Shown here piece by piece: positions 1 to 14,692 of a DNA stretch of 64,000 nucleotides. Source of the stretch: an uncultured Pirellulaceae bacterium (GTDB taxonomy: Bacteria > Planctomycetota > Planctomycetia > Pirellulales > Pirellulaceae). How positions within the stretch are numbered: the first letter of the stretch is position 1; each line of letters opens with the position of its first letter. The notes below the pieces were generated by a model, which saw only the letters and a program-made list of their open reading frames with translations, did no database searches and was not told the origin of the DNA. A program made the position numbers and the translations under genes. The stretch lies in the NCBI GenBank assembly GCA_937929805.1, contig CALFUT010000006.1, positions 113,487-177,486 of the forward strand, in the 5' to 3' direction.

Positions 1-1884
1 GGCGATTTTGTGTCGCTGACGCTACCAATTCAAACGCCTCACGCCGTCTGGGTTGCTGATTCGGAACGCACGCGCCTAGAAGATGTGACCGTCCATGCGA
101 GCACAAGTTTTGCGTTTTTTGAAACAGGCGGCGGTGCCAATGAGTACATCGGTTTGACGGTCGCCCCGGGATCGCGACCCGCCGGAGCCAGCGTCGATCG
201 ATTGTTGTCGAGTAATTACGATGCGTTTCATAGTAAAAACGCCAACGTTGGCCCACGCATTGAACGAGCCCATTTCTCAAGCATGGGAGATGATGGTGTC
301 GCAATCAACGGCGACTATCAATTACTTGTTCGCAACGATGGTAATTCGATTGTTGTGGCAAGGAAGTGGAACTTGTCGGTGTTTGAGGTCGGGGATCGAA
401 TCCGAGTCTTCAGTGAATCAACTGGACGCTACCACGAGTCTACGATCACAGGAGTTTCGGGGGCGGCGAACACCGGCATTAACTTCGGTGCCGCCCGAGA
501 TCAATGGTTGCCGGGATTGGCTGGTGCCCAAAATCAGTTTCGTGATGGGTTGAGATTGGAACTGTCGCAACCAATCCCCAACGCCGCTGGTGACCTTGTG
601 CAAAATCTTGACCGCAATGGAGCCGGTTTCCAAATTCTTGACTCCGTATTTGAAAACACACGAGCGCGAGGACTGGCTTTGAAGGCAGATGGCGGCACAG
701 TTGCCGGCAACACGATCCGTCACATCGCTACCACCGGGGTTTTAATAGCGCCGGAGTCCGAGTTTTTCGCTGAGGCCGGGTTTGCGAGTTCGGTGGTGGT
801 TGAAAATAATCACATTTCCGATGTTGGTTTTCAGCTTGACAGTCCGTACACACGGCACGGTGGAGGAATTTCGATCACGGCCGATCCGTCGACCAACTCC
901 CGTGGGCATGAAGATCTGCGAATCGAGAATAACTTGTTCGATCGAGTTATCGGAACCAACATTACGATTTCCAATGCGTCAGAAGTTAATGTGGCTGGCA
1001 ACCTGTTCCGTCGGTCTCATTTGGAAGATCGCGGCCATGGCGATGGACTTGGGGTCGATCGGCGTTCACTGGTCTGGGCAACGAATTCCGACAACCTTGT
1101 GTTCAGTGAAAACTTGGTTGATCGACCGGGTCCGTTCCTCCAGCGGAACGTCTCCCTAACTTCACCCGTTTCGAATGTCACGGGTCGGAATACCTTCCGC
1201 ACAATTAGCCAAGCAACGCAGGTCGTTGGGCGTGGGGTTGCTTATGGAGGGTCGGCCGAGTTTGGGGACACTGAAGTGGACTCCACCATCCAAGCATTGT
1301 TGCCGGGTGAAATTTCCGGGGCGAATAACTTGACCAATTATGATCGTGGGCTGAATCGAGTGGTGATCGATTTTGCTGATCTCCCGCGTGATGAATTATC
1401 CGTAGAAGATTTCGAATTCCGGGTGGGGAATTCGGGTGAGCCGGACGAGTGGTTACTCCTCGGTGCCGATTCCGACGTACCTCTTCCGTTGGTCAGAACG
1501 ATCAATGGTGGTTCTTCTAGTACAACACGCGTTGTGCTTGAATGGCCCGATCATGCGATCAAGAACCAGTGGCTGCAGGTGACCATTAGAGCAAATGGCA
1601 GCACCGGACTTGAGGCAGCCGATACTTTCTATTTTGGCAATCAAGTCGGTAACGTGGCCAACTTTAATTTGTCGCTCGGTAGGCCAGTGTTCGTCAACCT
1701 GTCGGACGTGCGAGGCGTGTTAAGGAACCGAACCCCCAACACGCAGGGAGACATCGGCAATCTGTACGATATCAATCGGGACGGGAAAGTTGATCGAGCG
1801 GACGTTGATATCGTTTTCGCCAACTACGCTCGACGGGGCGGTTTGATCAGTTTTCAAGCACCGATCCTGTCTCCGTTGTCTTGA
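1..1884 (+). CDS. Right-handed beta-helix repeat protein with C-terminal dockerin-like EF-hand (5' truncated by window edge)
   Basis: Frame open from base 1 (GDFVSLTLP...). Beta-helix style repeats (GDDGVAINGDYQLLV, ENNHISDVG, IENNLFDRV). C-terminus GDIGNLYDINRDGKVDRADVDIVFANY looks like a dockerin/EF-hand calcium loop. Confidence 0.7.
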   Translation, partial: GDFVSLTLPIQTPHAVWVADSERTRLEDVTVHASTSFAFFETGGGANEYIGLTVAPGSRPAGASVDRLLSSNYDAFHSKNANVGPRIERAHFSSMGDDGVAINGDYQLLVRNDGNSIVVARKWNLSVFEVGDRIRVFSESTGRYHESTITGVSGAANTGINFGAARDQWLPGLAGAQNQFRDGLRLELSQPIPNAAGDLVQNLDRNGAGFQILDSVFENTRARGLALKADGGTVAGNTIRHIATTGVLIAPESEFFAEAGFASSVVVENNHISDVGFQLDSPYTRHGGGISITADPSTNSRGHEDLRIENNLFDRVIGTNITISNASEVNVAGNLFRRSHLEDRGHGDGLGVDRRSLVWATNSDNLVFSENLVDRPGPFLQRNVSLTSPVSNVTGRNTFRTISQATQVVGRGVAYGGSAEFGDTEVDSTIQALLPGEISGANNLTNYDRGLNRVVIDFADLPRDELSVEDFEFRVGNSGEPDEWLLLGADSDVPLPLVRTINGGSSSTTRVVLEWPDHAIKNQWLQVTIRANGSTGLEAADTFYFGNQVGNVANFNLSLGRPVFVNLSDVRGVLRNRTPNTQGDIGNLYDINRDGKVDRADVDIVFANYARRGGLISFQAPILSPLS

Positions 1885-2194
1885 TTTGAATCGCTCTCGC
1901 ATTGGTTTGTCGTTGTCGAACGACGGCCGCGGCCAAAGTTTGCAGCGAGATCACCTTTGGAACCGGTCCTCGAAATCCATAATCGATCGGGTTGCTCACC
2001 GGGTTAAACCAATCTTATTTAGTTAGCTTAGCTTCCGTTAGGGCTGCCTAAAGGGAGATGAAGTTCCCGCGATGGTTGCGTGTCGGAAAAAGCCAACTGA
2101 AAGTCATGATTTTTGATAAGTTGGCAATCGTAAGCAGGATTCTCATTTTCTGTTTCGTCCACTTCCGAAAATCGTGAACAAGGAACTTTGATCG

Positions 2195-5100
2195 ATGCCT
2201 CTCCATCAGCACGAAACGCCTGAAGAACTTCAACGAGCACTCGGATGGAACCGCGAAGTTTCCAATGACCCGGTCGAACGTGAAAATTTGCGCAGCTACA
2301 TTTCGCTGCAACTATCGGCTGCCGGTCTGACGGCGCCGGAAGAAGAGCGTTCGCTGGCCAGATTTTCGCAGGGCATTCTCGAAAACTTGCGCGAGAAAAA
2401 CCGTTTACTCGATGGTCATCGCGCCCCGATCGACGCTCGAATTGAAGCGTTTCTGGGCAGCTATTTCGCCGACTTGAATTTGGAAACTCCGTTACGCGTG
2501 CCTTCGTCCAGTTTGGTGCTGGATCGACACGGGATGGCTCGCGAGTTAAGCCTGCCAGCGGACGGGTACGCGTTCACCAATAAGCTGGTTGACTCACGCA
2601 GGTTGCGAAATGGAGTATTAAACAACCCGGTTCATGATCGCCGCACCACTGCCGGCACCTTCCATATCGTTGAAGGCGGTCTACCGATCCCGGGCGACAA
2701 GCGTGCGGTGCCCAAGCAGACGTTCGCTCGTTTGATGCAGGCGGCACTCAAGCCACCCAAGGAAATGTTACTGTTGCCATACACGTCCGAATCGGCACGG
2801 CAGGCGTTCTCGTGGGTGTCTTTAATGCTGCGGCCACTGGTATGTCCCGAGGTGCCCGGCGTTTGTCCGGCTCAAACCATCGAGGTTCGTTTCTTTGCAC
2901 CGGCTAGTTTGGTCAGCAACCTAGATTTTGTTGAATCGATTTTTGGCAACGCGGGTGATCCGCTGGTGCCGACGAAAAACGCCGCTCTTGATGTGCACGG
3001 TTGGAGCGGCCACACAGGATGCGTGATTCTTGCTCCGCATTTGACTTCGATCCCCAAGAAGGATCTGGGTTTGCCTCACGTGAACGACGCGACCGAACGA
3101 CAGAAGCAAGACGGGATGTGCTGGTCGGAACCAGACGAATGCTACAACAACGGCACGGCATTCAAGTTGACCTGTCGCGATGAAACTGGAGTCGTTGTTA
3201 CGTTGATTGCGGACAACTATTACGGCTACTGCAAAAAAGAAGTCAAAACTCAGATCAGCTACGCTGCGAACTTGATGGGTGGCGTCGAAGAAGAACACGC
3301 GGGCGGTGCTTTGGCATTCGCGTCGTATTCGCTGGGCGATGAATTTCAGGTCAACAGCCGTCGCTACAACGGGCGGAGTTTCGAAGACGTGGCTCGTGAC
3401 TACGCGGCGTTTGTCGACGCCCGCCCGGACGGATATGGAGTCGATCGAAAGTTTCCCTCATTGATTTACATCCCGGAAAACGCACACGTTTCATTGAACA
3501 AACGCTGCGTGTCGTGGACTCGGTCCGATGGTAGTGAGCATCAGATTGCGCTTTCTCCAGAAAACGTCTACATCGCGCCAAGTGGCTACCAGATTCGGCT
3601 TGAGAAACATCCAGCGGCACCCTCTTGGCGGCTTGTCGGGACAGTGGGCGAGGGCGTGTTCTGTCACAAGCCGTGCACGGTCAGCGGCGGGGGAAAAAGC
3701 GAGATCAGTAAAAGCCTGAGAGACTACATGTTGTACGGTCCCATCTTCGTGGTCGACCAAGAAACGGATTTTGCAAAACTGGACGAGATTTTTGGCTACG
3801 ACTTTACAACACGTTGGCGATCTGACTACGGCGACAAACCAACTTATCAGGATGGCGTTCGACGCAAGTTCCTTGACCCGGCGCGGTCACTGGGTAGTTG
3901 CATCAAACTGTTGTCGCATTCGAACGACTTTAACGACGCGTACAACCAATGGCTGGACTCGATCCCGGCGCACATTTACGGGCTGGCGTTCATCATCAAG
4001 CGTTTCACTCGGCGAGGAATGGAAGGCGATTGGCGTGACCACTTTGGTGTCGACGTGGTCAATGGATCTCCGGGCCATGAATTGAAAGTGGGCGATCGCA
4101 GCCTAGTGGGAACTTACTTGCGAGTCGGCTTGTCCAATGGGCGTTGGCGTACGTTCAAAGTGCGTCAGGATTTTATCGCGGCTGCAAAGGTTCAGATGGA
4201 AGACGATATCAGCGCTAGCACGGTGGTGAACGCCGACTTAATTCAAGATGCGGGGGCCGCGGTCAAGAAGGCGGGAAGTTACAAATTTGTTCGCAACTGC
4301 GAGTTCCGACTGTTCCAAAGGCCGGATGATGCTGTGCACCGAGGTCTGGACGAGCAAACCGAATTTGATTTGGCTCGACCGGGCAATTTTATCAGTAACT
4401 TCGAACCGTTAACGTCCGACGAAGCGGCTGAATTGGTGGACGACGTGATTGGTTTCGACCAGTACACCCAGCCGATGCAGGACTTGTTGGTCGGAGCCAG
4501 CAAGCAAGAGGAAGGTTACGTCGTCAGCAGTGCTCATCCGCGTCTGATGAACGGCGTGCCGACCAAGAACCCGCGATACTTGCAGGATCGCCCCGACATG
4601 GTTCGCTCACGCGATACCTATCTGGCGCAGATTGGCGTGCGTTTGTTCCGAGCGATTCCTATGGATCAGCCGGTTCATGTTCCCGTCGGCGCGATTTTGA
4701 GTGGCCGTCGAAACAATCCTCCATCAGCCAAGGATGGGATTCGCTCGCTGGCGGTCTACAGTCCCTTGCACTATCAAGAGCTTCCCGAATTGATGATGGA
4801 CTACGTGTGTTCGTTGACCGGAAAAAGTCCAAGCACAACGGGAGCCGGCAGCGAAGGTGCGTTGACGAAGGGCCCATTCAATATGTTGATGACCACCGCG
4901 GATCTGAATGCCGCTTTGGTCGCGATGATCCTGACAGAGTTGGGTGGGTTCAGTACTCCGGCCGGTCACGTCGGGCCAGATTTTGAAGTCGGACACGACA
5001 TCAGTCTGTTGATCCCAGAAGTTTGGTGCCGCATGGGCCCAGACGAACGCGATCCGGCTAACTTAATTGAGAATCGAATGCTCGAGAAAATCGATGACTT

Positions 5101-5731
5101 CGATCACAACGGCGAGCGAATTCTGGCCAGTCGACTTGGCTATCGCATGACGCCTCGCTTTCTGACCCACTACCTGTCTCGCGTTTTTGACAATCCATCC
5201 AAGGTATTCACGGAAGAGATTCTTAATCCGGCTTTGCAAGATCATGACTCCTATGCCGACGGAATCAACTACATCATCGAGGCTCATCAACGTGTGGCCA
5301 GACAGTACCTCGAAGACGGCAGCTACAAGTTGGCTTGTCCGCCGTTGCAGGCGTTGCTGAGCATCATGGCCAACGGCAATTGGCATGGTCACGAGGTTAC
5401 CAGCCCGGAAGTTCGAAAAATGTTCACACGCGAATATTTATTGGCGAGTGATTGGTACCACGAGCGTTTGGCTCACAAGCAGCAGAACGATATCAAGCTT
5501 TGGACGCGGAAGTTGGAAGGCCTGCAAGCCTGTATCGACGAACCCAATCGAAAGGATTTGGTCAGCGAGCTTCAGCTGAAATCGCGTTTGGAGGAGGCGA
5601 CTGAAAAGTTGGCTCATGTGTCTTCGCCCGAATATTTGGACGAATTGGTTGGGACATTGGGTGCCGATCCGATGCGACCGATCGAGGTCTTGGTACCCTC
5701 TGAGGCGAATCTGGAAACGGTCGCGGTTTGA
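2195..5731 (+). CDS. Large conserved protein, candidate PPi-type phosphoenolpyruvate carboxykinase family
   Basis: 1178 aa ORF with conserved-looking blocks NYYGYCKKEVKTQISYAANLMGGVEEEHAGGA, TVSGGGKSEISKSL (P-loop-like) and CPPLQALLSIMANGNWHG...FTREYLLASDWYHERL. Size and motifs fit PPi-PEPCK from memory only. Confidence 0.5.
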   Translation: MPLHQHETPEELQRALGWNREVSNDPVERENLRSYISLQLSAAGLTAPEEERSLARFSQGILENLREKNRLLDGHRAPIDARIEAFLGSYFADLNLETPLRVPSSSLVLDRHGMARELSLPADGYAFTNKLVDSRRLRNGVLNNPVHDRRTTAGTFHIVEGGLPIPGDKRAVPKQTFARLMQAALKPPKEMLLLPYTSESARQAFSWVSLMLRPLVCPEVPGVCPAQTIEVRFFAPASLVSNLDFVESIFGNAGDPLVPTKNAALDVHGWSGHTGCVILAPHLTSIPKKDLGLPHVNDATERQKQDGMCWSEPDECYNNGTAFKLTCRDETGVVVTLIADNYYGYCKKEVKTQISYAANLMGGVEEEHAGGALAFASYSLGDEFQVNSRRYNGRSFEDVARDYAAFVDARPDGYGVDRKFPSLIYIPENAHVSLNKRCVSWTRSDGSEHQIALSPENVYIAPSGYQIRLEKHPAAPSWRLVGTVGEGVFCHKPCTVSGGGKSEISKSLRDYMLYGPIFVVDQETDFAKLDEIFGYDFTTRWRSDYGDKPTYQDGVRRKFLDPARSLGSCIKLLSHSNDFNDAYNQWLDSIPAHIYGLAFIIKRFTRRGMEGDWRDHFGVDVVNGSPGHELKVGDRSLVGTYLRVGLSNGRWRTFKVRQDFIAAAKVQMEDDISASTVVNADLIQDAGAAVKKAGSYKFVRNCEFRLFQRPDDAVHRGLDEQTEFDLARPGNFISNFEPLTSDEAAELVDDVIGFDQYTQPMQDLLVGASKQEEGYVVSSAHPRLMNGVPTKNPRYLQDRPDMVRSRDTYLAQIGVRLFRAIPMDQPVHVPVGAILSGRRNNPPSAKDGIRSLAVYSPLHYQELPELMMDYVCSLTGKSPSTTGAGSEGALTKGPFNMLMTTADLNAALVAMILTELGGFSTPAGHVGPDFEVGHDISLLIPEVWCRMGPDERDPANLIENRMLEKIDDFDHNGERILASRLGYRMTPRFLTHYLSRVFDNPSKVFTEEILNPALQDHDSYADGINYIIEAHQRVARQYLEDGSYKLACPPLQALLSIMANGNWHGHEVTSPEVRKMFTREYLLASDWYHERLAHKQQNDIKLWTRKLEGLQACIDEPNRKDLVSELQLKSRLEEATEKLAHVSSPEYLDELVGTLGADPMRPIEVLVPSEANLETVAV

Positions 5732-6126: not shown

Positions 6127-7641
6127 CTACCGCCGTCCTGTGGAGAGCAGCTTGCGGTCTTCGTTGAGCCGCTTTCGCACCTGTTCGGCTTGTTTCAGTT
6201 CGCCATTGAGTCCGCTCAAGGTTTTACGCTGGCGAGCCAATTGTTCGTCCTGTCTTTTTAGTCGCTCTTTCAAGTCGTTCATGATCTGACTTAGCTCGTC
6301 GCGGCGAATCTGTTCCGCTTCTAGCTTTCGTTCCATCTCGGCAACTCGGTTGGGAATGTTGCCCAGTCGTTCGGCGAGTTCTTCAAGTTCCAAGTCAATC
6401 TTGGAAATGGCTTCCTTGTTGACGATTTCAGGTGCCAGATTGCCAGTTTTTAATTCGGCAAGGATCGGCTCAATGGTGGAGACCGGCAGCGAGTAATTGG
6501 CGACTCGACCGGCTCGTGCGATGTTGATGCCAATGACCTTGCCGTCAATGTTGACGACGGGGCCACCACAGTTTCTTGCCGTCAACATGCTGTCGTGCTG
6601 GAACGCATCCGGAAACGCCTTTCTGCGTCGGCTTAACTTGCTGCCCATGCTATTCTGTTGATTGCTGCGTTGGTTTTGCGGACTGGCCTTGTCTTTTTCG
6701 GCCAAGGTCAGTTTGATTTTCTTTTCGGTATCACCTCGCATGATCGTCAACGTAATCCGTTCACCCGGGTCGTATTGTCCTAACGTTTCGCGAAGCGATT
6801 CAATGTCGGTGGTGTCGGTCGAATCGATTCGCGTGATCACATCATTGACCCACAATCCTGCTTCGTCGGCGGGTGACTTGCTGACGATGAACGTGATCCG
6901 GACACCATCGCGGTCCTCCAAATCAGTCATCGAGATTCCAATAAATGGCGTGGAAGGAGGGATTTCTCGTGTGTTGACGCTGACGATTCCAACGAGAGGG
7001 TCATTGTCTGGCAGTGGCGACGCGACCCACTGACCAATCTGCGGTGCGGGGTCGGTAGCGAACTGGACCACGTTCAAACTAGCTGCTTTGACTCGCAGCA
7101 TCGCTAGATCGGATTGAGCATGAATGCCGTACACTTCAGCCGGCAAGAGTTTTCCATTGGGCAACTGGCATTTGAGTTCCCCCTTTAGCTCGCTGGCCTT
7201 CGTCAGGATCAGACCGTCCGAGTCAACGATCAATCCCAGAGCCAACTGTCGGCCACCCGAGTAAATTTGCACGACTGACTTGCTGGCGGATTCGACGACT
7301 GGCTGAAAAAGGGCAACAAAATTGTTAGCTCGTTTGGAGTACTGTTCGACATTGCGTTTGCTTTGCGAGCGGCGTCGGCGATTGGGGCTTAGTTGGTACG
7401 GTTCGTCCGAGTCATCTTCTTGTTCTTCCGCTTCGTCTTCTTCAGCAGGGTCCTCGTCTTGCTCACCCAAGTCCTGCGAGTCGCTGTCTTGAACCAAAGC
7501 GGCAAAGGACGAGGTCGGGACGCAGATTGAGCTAGAGGTGATTGCGATCAGAATCAACAGCGAGAAGATGCTGTTGGCTCGGAGGGAAGAATTGTACAGG
7601 TTGAAAATCATACGGTTGTCAGGGCTAGTTGCTTTCGCCAA
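6127..7641 (-). CDS. HtrA-like trypsin/PDZ protein with degenerate catalytic triad and C-terminal coiled coil
   Basis: DGLILTKASELKG replaces the usual (N/A)HV motif. QSDLAMLRV retained. PDZ-like VSKSPADEAGLWVNDVITRIDS. Then RNCGGPVVNIDGKVIGINIAR (Ser to Cys). Coiled-coil tail. Confidence 0.8.
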   Translation of the reverse strand: MAKATSPDNRMIFNLYNSSLRANSIFSLLILIAITSSSICVPTSSFAALVQDSDSQDLGEQDEDPAEEDEAEEQEDDSDEPYQLSPNRRRRSQSKRNVEQYSKRANNFVALFQPVVESASKSVVQIYSGGRQLALGLIVDSDGLILTKASELKGELKCQLPNGKLLPAEVYGIHAQSDLAMLRVKAASLNVVQFATDPAPQIGQWVASPLPDNDPLVGIVSVNTREIPPSTPFIGISMTDLEDRDGVRITFIVSKSPADEAGLWVNDVITRIDSTDTTDIESLRETLGQYDPGERITLTIMRGDTEKKIKLTLAEKDKASPQNQRSNQQNSMGSKLSRRRKAFPDAFQHDSMLTARNCGGPVVNIDGKVIGINIARAGRVANYSLPVSTIEPILAELKTGNLAPEIVNKEAISKIDLELEELAERLGNIPNRVAEMERKLEAEQIRRDELSQIMNDLKERLKRQDEQLARQRKTLSGLNGELKQAEQVRKRLNEDRKLLSTGRR

Positions 7642-8905
7642 CGACGACTTCCAGAGACATTGTCTTGCTGCGTCGCTTGATCTTGAAGGTGGTTTTTTGA
7701 AAGGGCAAAAGCTTTGCGATTGCTAATTCCAATTCGTTATAGGTTGAAATCTTGATTCCATCGATTCCCACGATTCGATCCATCGGTTTAAGTCCAGCTT
7801 TGTCGGCCGGTCCTTTGTCTTTGACGTCGGTGATTCGGTTGGAGTTCGGTCGGACAGTGAAACCCATGTAGGGAGTTCCATCGATCACCAAGCCCCGATC
7901 CATTTTGTCCCAATTGTCCGAATAGACATCGATCGGCGCGTGTAGATTGTCCCAGAGCTTGGACCCGATGCGGCTATGGATTCCGATTACTTCTCCGTTC
8001 ATGTCGACCAATGGTCCACCTGAATCACCACCCACAAGCGTGCAGTCGGTTTGCAGTCGCGAGTGATGGTTGCTGATGATGCGGCCGGCTCGGAAGACCA
8101 GCCCTCGCTTTTCATCGATGCCACCAGGGTGCCCAACCGCCATGACCCATTGACCGGGTTGCAGTTCGGCCGACAGGCCGATTTCTAGGTGAGGAAAACG
8201 CTTGCCTTCCGTTTCGGCAATCTTCAACATTCCGTAATCAAGATTCCGGGCAAGCCCCAACGTGTTGGCTTCAACGATGCGACCGTCGGGAAAGGTCACA
8301 TTTGCAACACCGCCTGGGCGACCAATCACATGAGCTGCTGTCAGAATATAGCCATCGTCCGAAACAACGACGCCAGAACCTTGAGCCATTCCGATCTGAA
8401 TGTTGACGGTTGCTGGAGAGACCTGATCGGCAAGGGATGCAAAATGTTCCTCCATCGCTTTGAGTTCTTCTAACGTGGAAGGAGATTTTCCATCAAACAG
8501 AAAATCAAGCGAGGTGGCGGCTAGTTCAACATTGTCTTCTTGCGAAAGTGAATCGGTGTCCGATTTCGGGTCCGCTTTTGGATCGGGCGTCGACATGGCG
8601 GCCGAACTAGAATCTTCTTCATCTTCAGGTTTGGCAGCGTCGGGCGAATCGGATTCACTTCTCGGCGCAAGGTCCATTTCCTCAGGACGAGTCGGTCGAT
8701 CCAGCGGAATATCTAGGTCCAGCGGCAGGTCCAATTCGTCATCAAGCTCATCGTCATCGGCCGGAATCGTTTCTGGATCTTCGGTCACGACTTGGATCAT
8801 CGCGGCTGTCGCGCTCGCTTTCCAGCTGGGCGAATCGAATCCGAGCGTGATCACTAGGATCACCGGTAGCAGAGCGATCGAAGGTCGTGAAGTCGACAGC
8901 ATCAA
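7625..8905 (-). CDS. HtrA-like S1C serine protease with PDZ domain
   Basis: GYILTAAHVIG (His), NLDYGMLKI (Asp), VGGDSGGPLVDMNGEVIGIH (Ser), C-terminal PDZ (PADKAGLKPMDRIVGIDGIKI). Confidence 0.9.
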   Translation of the reverse strand: MMLSTSRPSIALLPVILVITLGFDSPSWKASATAAMIQVVTEDPETIPADDDELDDELDLPLDLDIPLDRPTRPEEMDLAPRSESDSPDAAKPEDEEDSSSAAMSTPDPKADPKSDTDSLSQEDNVELAATSLDFLFDGKSPSTLEELKAMEEHFASLADQVSPATVNIQIGMAQGSGVVVSDDGYILTAAHVIGRPGGVANVTFPDGRIVEANTLGLARNLDYGMLKIAETEGKRFPHLEIGLSAELQPGQWVMAVGHPGGIDEKRGLVFRAGRIISNHHSRLQTDCTLVGGDSGGPLVDMNGEVIGIHSRIGSKLWDNLHAPIDVYSDNWDKMDRGLVIDGTPYMGFTVRPNSNRITDVKDKGPADKAGLKPMDRIVGIDGIKISTYNELELAIAKLLPFQKTTFKIKRRSKTMSLEVVVGESN

Positions 8906-12781: not shown

Positions 12782-12940
12782 GGTTCAGGGTTCAGGGTTC
12801 AGGGTTCAGGGTTCAGGGTTCAGGGTTCAGGGTTCAGGGTTCGGTGTTCGGTGTTCGGTGTTCGGTGTTCGGTGTTCGGTGTTCGGTGTTCGGTGTTCGG
12901 TGTTCGGTGTTCGGTGTTCGGTGTTCGGTGTTCGGTGTTT
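12782..12940. repeat. Heptanucleotide tandem repeat (GGTTCAG)8 - GGTTCGG - (TGTTCGG)13
   Basis: Counted directly in the sequence: eight GGTTCAG from 12782, one transition unit, thirteen TGTTCGG from 12845 to 12935. Confidence 0.97.
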
Positions 12941-13666: not shown

Positions 13667-14671
13667 ATGCCTGCGATTGAAATCAAAAATTTGTGCAAGT
13701 CCTATCGTGTTTACCAAAAACAGGAAGGGATTTTGGCGTCGGTTCGCGGGCTATTCCATCGCGAGTATCGTGAGGTTCACGCGGTTCGTGATATTGACCT
13801 AACCGTCGATCGGGGCGAGTTCGTAGCTTTTCTAGGGCCAAACGGAGCCGGCAAAACGACGACGCTAAAGCTGCTTTCGGGGGTCATCAATCCGGATTCG
13901 GGAACCTGCCAAGTTTTGGGGCACGTTCCGTGGGAGCGGGAGAATTCGTACCGGCGAAAATTCGCTCTGGTGATGGGCCAAAAGAATCAACTCTGGTGGG
14001 ACCTGCCGGCGGCCGAGTCGTTTCGATTGAATCAGCACATTTACGGCGTGCCGCGAGAGCAGTTTGATCGAACTCGGGATGAACTGACGGACATGCTGGA
14101 CGTGACTCGTTTGTTGGGCCAACCGGTGCGAGAGCTTTCGCTGGGCGAGCGGATGAAGATGGAGCTGATTGCGGCGTTGTTGCACCAGCCGGATGTCTTG
14201 TTTCTGGACGAGCCCACGATCGGACTGGACGTGGTGGCTCAACATAAGATCCAGCAGTTTTTGAAAGCGTACCAGCAAGAGCGTGGCACCACGATTCTTT
14301 TAACCAGTCATTACATGAAAGACATTCAGGCGCTGTGCAAGCGGGTTGTCATTATCGCCAACGGTGCGATTTATCATGACGGATCGTTGGAAGATATCGT
14401 GGATCGGTTTAGCGGCGAGAAAATCGTGACCTTGCAGATGGCCGACGATCGATCCATTGACTCGCTGAGCAGCTTGCCGGGGTTGATTGAGGTCGAAGCG
14501 CCGCGGATCAAGTTTCGAGTGAATCGGGATGACGTGGGTCAGACGCTTAGCGAAATTTTGGCCAGCCACAGCGTCGACGATATCGTGGTCGAGGAACCTC
14601 CGCTGGAAGAAGTGATTTCCAAAGTTTTCTCGGAGGCGGAACGTAAAGCTGAATTGAACCCTGAAAACTGA
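13667..14671 (+). CDS. ABC transporter ATP-binding protein (ABC-2 type exporter)
   Basis: Walker A GPNGAGKTTTLK, signature LSLGERMKMELIAALLHQPDVLFLDEPTIGLD. Confidence 0.92.
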   Translation: MPAIEIKNLCKSYRVYQKQEGILASVRGLFHREYREVHAVRDIDLTVDRGEFVAFLGPNGAGKTTTLKLLSGVINPDSGTCQVLGHVPWERENSYRRKFALVMGQKNQLWWDLPAAESFRLNQHIYGVPREQFDRTRDELTDMLDVTRLLGQPVRELSLGERMKMELIAALLHQPDVLFLDEPTIGLDVVAQHKIQQFLKAYQQERGTTILLTSHYMKDIQALCKRVVIIANGAIYHDGSLEDIVDRFSGEKIVTLQMADDRSIDSLSSLPGLIEVEAPRIKFRVNRDDVGQTLSEILASHSVDDIVVEEPPLEEVISKVFSEAERKAELNPEN

Positions 14672-14692
14672 AAACTGAAAACTGAAAACTGC
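14658..14692. repeat. Heptad tract (CTGAAAA)n across the ABC ATPase stop codon
   Basis: aaccctgaaaactgaaaactgaaaactgaaaactg; the TGA stop is part of a CTGAAAA unit. Confidence 0.9.

Follow-up and report, generated by a model that had tools for sequence, protein, structure and literature searches.

The window, a 64,000-nucleotide stretch of DNA from an uncultured Pirellulaceae bacterium, encodes a pseudoprotease that derives from HtrA and whose internal architecture is new, hereafter pseudo-HtrA. Because it is always found with an intact HtrA of one particular subfamily, we regard it as probably an exported, dead HtrA-fold subunit that would act as a dedicated regulator of the HtrA encoded immediately upstream. 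A sequence-only reading had offered, as one possibility, a scaffold or regulator in place of a peptidase, a proposal that the present analysis supports and that the family's pairing with an active HtrA sharpens. Active/dead protease pairs are known in few cases, and a phylum-wide pair with a PDZ inside the dead catalytic fold appears undescribed in the open-access literature, where we found no description of the pseudo-HtrA family. A survey of microbial PDZ proteins reports many copies in planctomycetes, and a term search of it found no mention of an interrupted trypsin domain (PMC6411480). The family is widely distributed, and automatic annotation would probably label its members serine proteases.

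The ATG at 7611 is the likelier start of the gene, favored over an alternative TTG at 7641 (ORF 6127–7641, minus strand) that overlaps the upstream gene; residue numbers are counted from this ATG. The N-terminal hydrophobic segment is probably a Sec signal, as judged from its sequence. The features of the gene and its predicted product are as follows.

6127..7611, minus strand: pseudo-HtrA gene, 494 aa from ATG 7611, stop at 6127
7501..7611, minus strand: N-terminal hydrophobic segment, candidate Sec signal (LLILIAITSSSICVPTSSFA-A), from sequence
6946..7338, minus strand: trypsin N-lobe and first strand(s) of barrel 2, residues 92–222; TKAS replaces TAAH, Asp168 is kept, ends GIVSVNTREIP
7192..7194, minus strand: Ser140 codon, catalytic His position (alignment of 148 homologues)
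7108..7110, minus strand: Asp168 codon, catalytic Asp position (kept in 94/94 of the homologues collected with no motif selection)
6694..6942, minus strand: PDZ, residues 224–306, inserted between strands of barrel 2 where HtrA has loop L3 (Pfam, AlphaFold2, homologue domain map)
6436..6633, minus strand: trypsin C-lobe, residues 327–392, LSRRRKAFPDAFQHD...RNCGGPVVNIDGKVIGINIARAGR (phmmer, AlphaFold2)
6568..6570, minus strand: Cys348 codon (TGT), catalytic Ser position (sequence, homologue alignment)
6142..6417, minus strand: C-terminal long helix or coiled coil, residues 399–490 (AlphaFold2; present in the genus, variable elsewhere)

The protease domain is split by the PDZ. Pfam matched only the N-terminal part of Trypsin_2 (profile positions 3–85 of 144), followed by PDZ_2 at residues 231–312 (E 1.4e-15). 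In phmmer comparisons with solved HtrA proteins, the sequence up to GIVSVNTR matched the G-I-V-S-A-x-G-R strand found in HhoA and in DegP-like proteins, FQHDSMLTARNCGGPVVNIDGKVIGINIA aligned with the FIQTDAAINPGNSGGPL region, and the last part aligned with the nucleophile loop of DegP, HhoA and HTRA1, with the PDZ sitting between the two aligned parts. An AlphaFold2 model built from a 40-row alignment (pLDDT 85 overall, >95 over the core) displayed the same arrangement: a strand (206–217), the PDZ (226–309), a helix (311–320), a second strand (333–339) and the remainder of barrel 2, followed on the C-terminal side by a helix (377–388) and a single helix spanning 399–490. The best Foldseek matches of this model in the PDB were all HtrA proteins, with low TM-scores, as expected because the order of parts differs. 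Pfam, phmmer, AlphaFold2 and Foldseek together identify a two-barrel trypsin-like fold related to DegP. This fold and an HtrA-type PDZ are shared with the Deg/HtrA family S1C (DegP, DegS, HhoA, HTRA1), in which the PDZ follows an uninterrupted protease domain; in pseudo-HtrA it lies inside that domain, which has lost the catalytic His and Ser and the oxyanion Gly. C-terminal processing proteases (Prc/CtpA/CtpB, S41) also carry a PDZ inserted in the protease chain, where it regulates the protease, but they have an unrelated fold with a catalytic Ser-Lys dyad and are active.

The collinear order of N-lobe, PDZ and C-lobe recurred in every one of the 27 further genomes of the genus that were searched (two of these gave only a paralogue-type copy) and in many other genera, and is therefore neither chance nor an assembly artefact; a frameshift was likewise ruled out by the collinear homologues in other genera and the confident models. 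The earlier proposal of a PDZ within the protease fold is thus borne out by sequence, by the AlphaFold2 model and by more than 140 homologues, and its suggestion of an order differing from canonical HtrA held up in structure prediction, which placed the PDZ between barrel-2 strands and gave no linear trypsin-PDZ order. The coiled coil that it had also described is real in the window protein, as the 399–490 helix, but is not shared by the family, whose members have between 19 and 278 residues beyond Arg369; this helix is a lineage extra. As for the origin of the inserted PDZ, a tree of 89 columns gave no resolved placement.

An intact HtrA gene, which the sequence-only reading had not mentioned, lies directly upstream on the same strand, and the window's genome holds three such HtrA/pseudo-HtrA pairs, on C6 (the window), C7 and C12.

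7625..8902, minus strand: partner gene, intact HtrA with His191, Asp222, Ser294 in GDSGGP and a C-terminal PDZ; its end is separated from ATG 7611 by 13 bp
G000:C7:54839-57090: second pair
G000:C12:188652-190780: third pair

Among 138 distinct copies of pseudo-HtrA, the directly upstream same-strand neighbor was an intact HtrA in 109, where the median gap was 42 bp and many of the genes overlapped; a further 15 were fused in one ORF, 10 had no adjacent partner and 4 left no room to tell. From this spacing, the two genes are likely to form one operon. Around the pair no conserved third gene was found, only local synteny, chiefly with an NAD-epimerase-like gene. In the partner, Cys287 (TDCTLVGGDSGGP), seven residues before the catalytic Ser, is nearly invariant.

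The pairing extends across the phylum. Pseudo-HtrA was present in 50 of 294 Planctomycetota genomes. The partner subfamily scored above 200 bits in 31 of the 294, and all 31 also have pseudo-HtrA; the best partner-profile score in a genome lacking pseudo-HtrA was 181.6 bits. The other 19 pseudo-HtrA-positive genomes (the f43 family, G105, G238 and G340) encode pseudo-HtrA and an active protease in one long ORF, as read in detail for seven and judged by ORF length and co-located matches for the rest. Three genomes of family f21 (G211, G274, G341) have neither pseudo-HtrA nor partner. In six genomes containing pseudo-HtrA copies without an adjacent partner, the partner is encoded elsewhere, so strict co-expression is not general. 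The 148 distinct homologues all come from Planctomycetota where named, and a motif scan confirmed 539 relatives, the best 80 of which are planctomycete-titled except one labelled only 'bacterium'.

Trees of pseudo-HtrA and of the partner agreed (Mantel r 0.70, 0/2000 permutations), and both paralogous pair types tested formed matching clades in the two trees. Partners were aligned over their protease domains alone. Vertical descent by itself would be expected to produce most such agreement, and co-occurrence, joint absence and fusions constitute the stronger evidence. Adjacency, co-occurrence over the 294 genomes and the trees all indicate that pseudo-HtrA is constantly paired, genetically, with an active HtrA. 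In an N-lobe tree made by a quick method from few columns, the pseudo-HtrA and partner sets each fell on one side of a starred branch, a split that suggests a single ancient pair.

The fused forms vary in architecture. Most family members have one PDZ at the interlobe site, two are present in the f43 proteins L187 and L188, and four in L190 (G238:C18, ORF 1253-4684, plus strand, 1143 aa), which joins an active HtrA domain to a pseudo-HtrA with all four PDZs between its dead lobes. L187, L188, L189 and L192 are fused proteins of ~950 aa with two PDZs between the lobes, an architecture domain-mapped for L187 and L188 and assigned to L189 and L192 by matching pattern only, and they have Met or Gln where most members have Cys. 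In the fusions L042, L156, L184 and L204, no PDZ was detected in the active half, and the only PDZ is the inserted one. AlphaFold2 modelled the natural fusion L042 as a normal active barrel and an interrupted barrel in one chain, with confident domains, an overall pTM of 0.66 and no confident docking between the two protease barrels. Plant Deg7 resembles these fused forms in combining active and degenerate HtrA domains with several PDZs in one polypeptide; to our knowledge, its degenerate domain is not split by a PDZ, unlike that of pseudo-HtrA.

The catalytic site is degenerate throughout the family. In place of the His-Asp-Ser triad of S1C, the window protein has Ser140, Asp168 and Cys348, so that the sequence-only reading was correct for this protein in describing a lost His and a Ser-to-Cys exchange, and the intact triad that it had named as a possible refutation was not seen; the oxyanion Gly is lost as well. 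Across the 148 distinct homologues, the His position is occupied by Ser in 143, Asn in 3, Asp in 2 and His in none, and the oxyanion-hole Gly, two residues before the nucleophile position, is Gly in 0/148, while all 36 aligned partner HtrAs keep His, Asp, Ser and this Gly. In a set of 94 homologues collected with no motif filter, Lys138, Asp168 and Asp340 are invariant (94/94 each), and Ser140 (93/94) and His339 (91/94) nearly so. Because this non-catalytic pocket is conserved, the fold is under selection; its strong conservation would fit a pseudoenzyme with a job. On these residues, pseudo-HtrA is predicted not to be an active protease. Of the CGGP motif, whose conservation the sequence-only reading had named as a check, Cys348 is kept in 84/94 and replaced by Met, Gln, Thr or Ile in 10 (six or more changes across the tree). 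A disulfide was considered as a role for Cys348 and found not to be general: some members without the other frequent Cys (ELKCQL) still have Cys348.

Three other readings of the family were weighed. A cysteine peptidase, with Cys348 as nucleophile and another residue, such as His339 in QHD, replacing the lost His, would be consistent with the frequency of Cys348 and His339 in homologues not picked by motif (84/94 and 91/94) and with the retained Asp168. We consider it highly improbable: the ten homologues with Met, Gln, Thr or Ile still keep Lys138, Ser140, Asp168 and His339, the oxyanion-hole Gly is missing in 148/148, and His339 stands nine residues ahead of the nucleophile position, on the strand that runs up to it and off the base position. 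A Cys-nucleophile trypsin-like peptidase combines a Cys nucleophile, a His base and an oxyanion hole, a combination absent here, and the earlier suggestion of a Cys-nucleophile variant is not supported, as no homologue has a His at the base position. Since the Cys is replaced in ten members, a thiol nucleophile is not what unites the family. The near-perfect conservation of Lys138, Ser140, Asp168 and His339, which persists in Cys-less members and accompanies the loss of the ancestral residues, could alternatively mean that a new site, catalytic or ligand-binding, has replaced that of the protease; we hold this to be very unlikely, as the conserved residues may be structural and occupy the space vacated by His.

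Pseudo-HtrA might instead be a self-standing periplasmic PDZ scaffold or chaperone, or a redox sensor through Cys348, sharing an operon with HtrA for common stress control without contacting it. The variable number of inserted PDZs (1, 2 or 4), as expected of a binding scaffold, the long extra helix of the window protein and the wide separation of the two genes in some genomes lend this reading some weight. The fusions in many lineages, the joint absence in f21 genomes and the co-occurrence over 294 genomes nevertheless speak for joint function, leaving an independent scaffold a rather doubtful, if appreciable, prospect.

For a dedicated regulator of the upstream HtrA, the nearest working model, by analogy, would be MamO-MamE. 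MamO is a dead HtrA-like protease that activates proteolysis by MamE, and the pairing of active with inactive HtrA copies arose several times (PMC4794232). MamO and inactive MamE copies likewise have a dead HtrA-like fold genetically paired with an active HtrA, MamO has a non-glycine residue at the oxyanion position, as in pseudo-HtrA, and we found no mention there of a PDZ within the MamO protease domain, such as pseudo-HtrA has (PMC4794232). The two differ in phylum, residues and sequence. MamO proper forms its own clade and carries a metal-binding di-histidine, and the NCBIfam MamO model scored 19 bits on pseudo-HtrA against a cut-off of 800 bits.

HtrA regulation is usually described as running from the PDZ through loop L3 to the active site. 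In ordinary HtrA proteins, a separate C-terminal PDZ contacts L3, and in DegS the loop between the strands corresponding to those that flank the inserted PDZ is L3 (residues 176–189), through which the signal from the PDZ reaches the active site (PMC11642142). DegS Arg178 belongs to the activation cluster (PMC11642142); its equivalent, Arg215, which lines up with the Gly-Arg conserved in HtrA proteins, is kept in only 73/94 homologues, a conservation that would permit PDZ-to-site signalling and is no proof of it. In the mechanism that we propose for the regulator, the two protease folds would pair in a mixed oligomer, peptides would be sensed through the PDZ built into the dead subunit, and peptide binding there would pass directly into the barrel and the neighboring active subunit, which pseudo-HtrA may switch on or provide with substrate, inhibition being another possible direction of control. 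More tentatively, pseudo-HtrA could be a hard-wired allosteric subunit, HtrA having been split into sensing-only and cutting subunits, with the PDZ in the L3 of the dead copy and the number of PDZs inserted there (1, 2 or 4) adjustable. With PDZ and L3 forming one covalent unit in a non-cutting subunit, the pair would represent a natural split of sensing from catalysis that is directly testable.

Elsewhere in the window, an ORF at 2195-5731 (plus strand, 1178 aa) lies downstream of and convergent with pseudo-HtrA and has no Pfam match at E 0.001. Short tandem arrays of seven-base repeats (GGTTCAG x8.7, GTTCGGT x14.4, CTGAAAA x4.4 and AGTTTTC x4.6) occur at 12782-12939, 14661-14691 and 47246-47277, some of which yield spurious repetitive ORFs.
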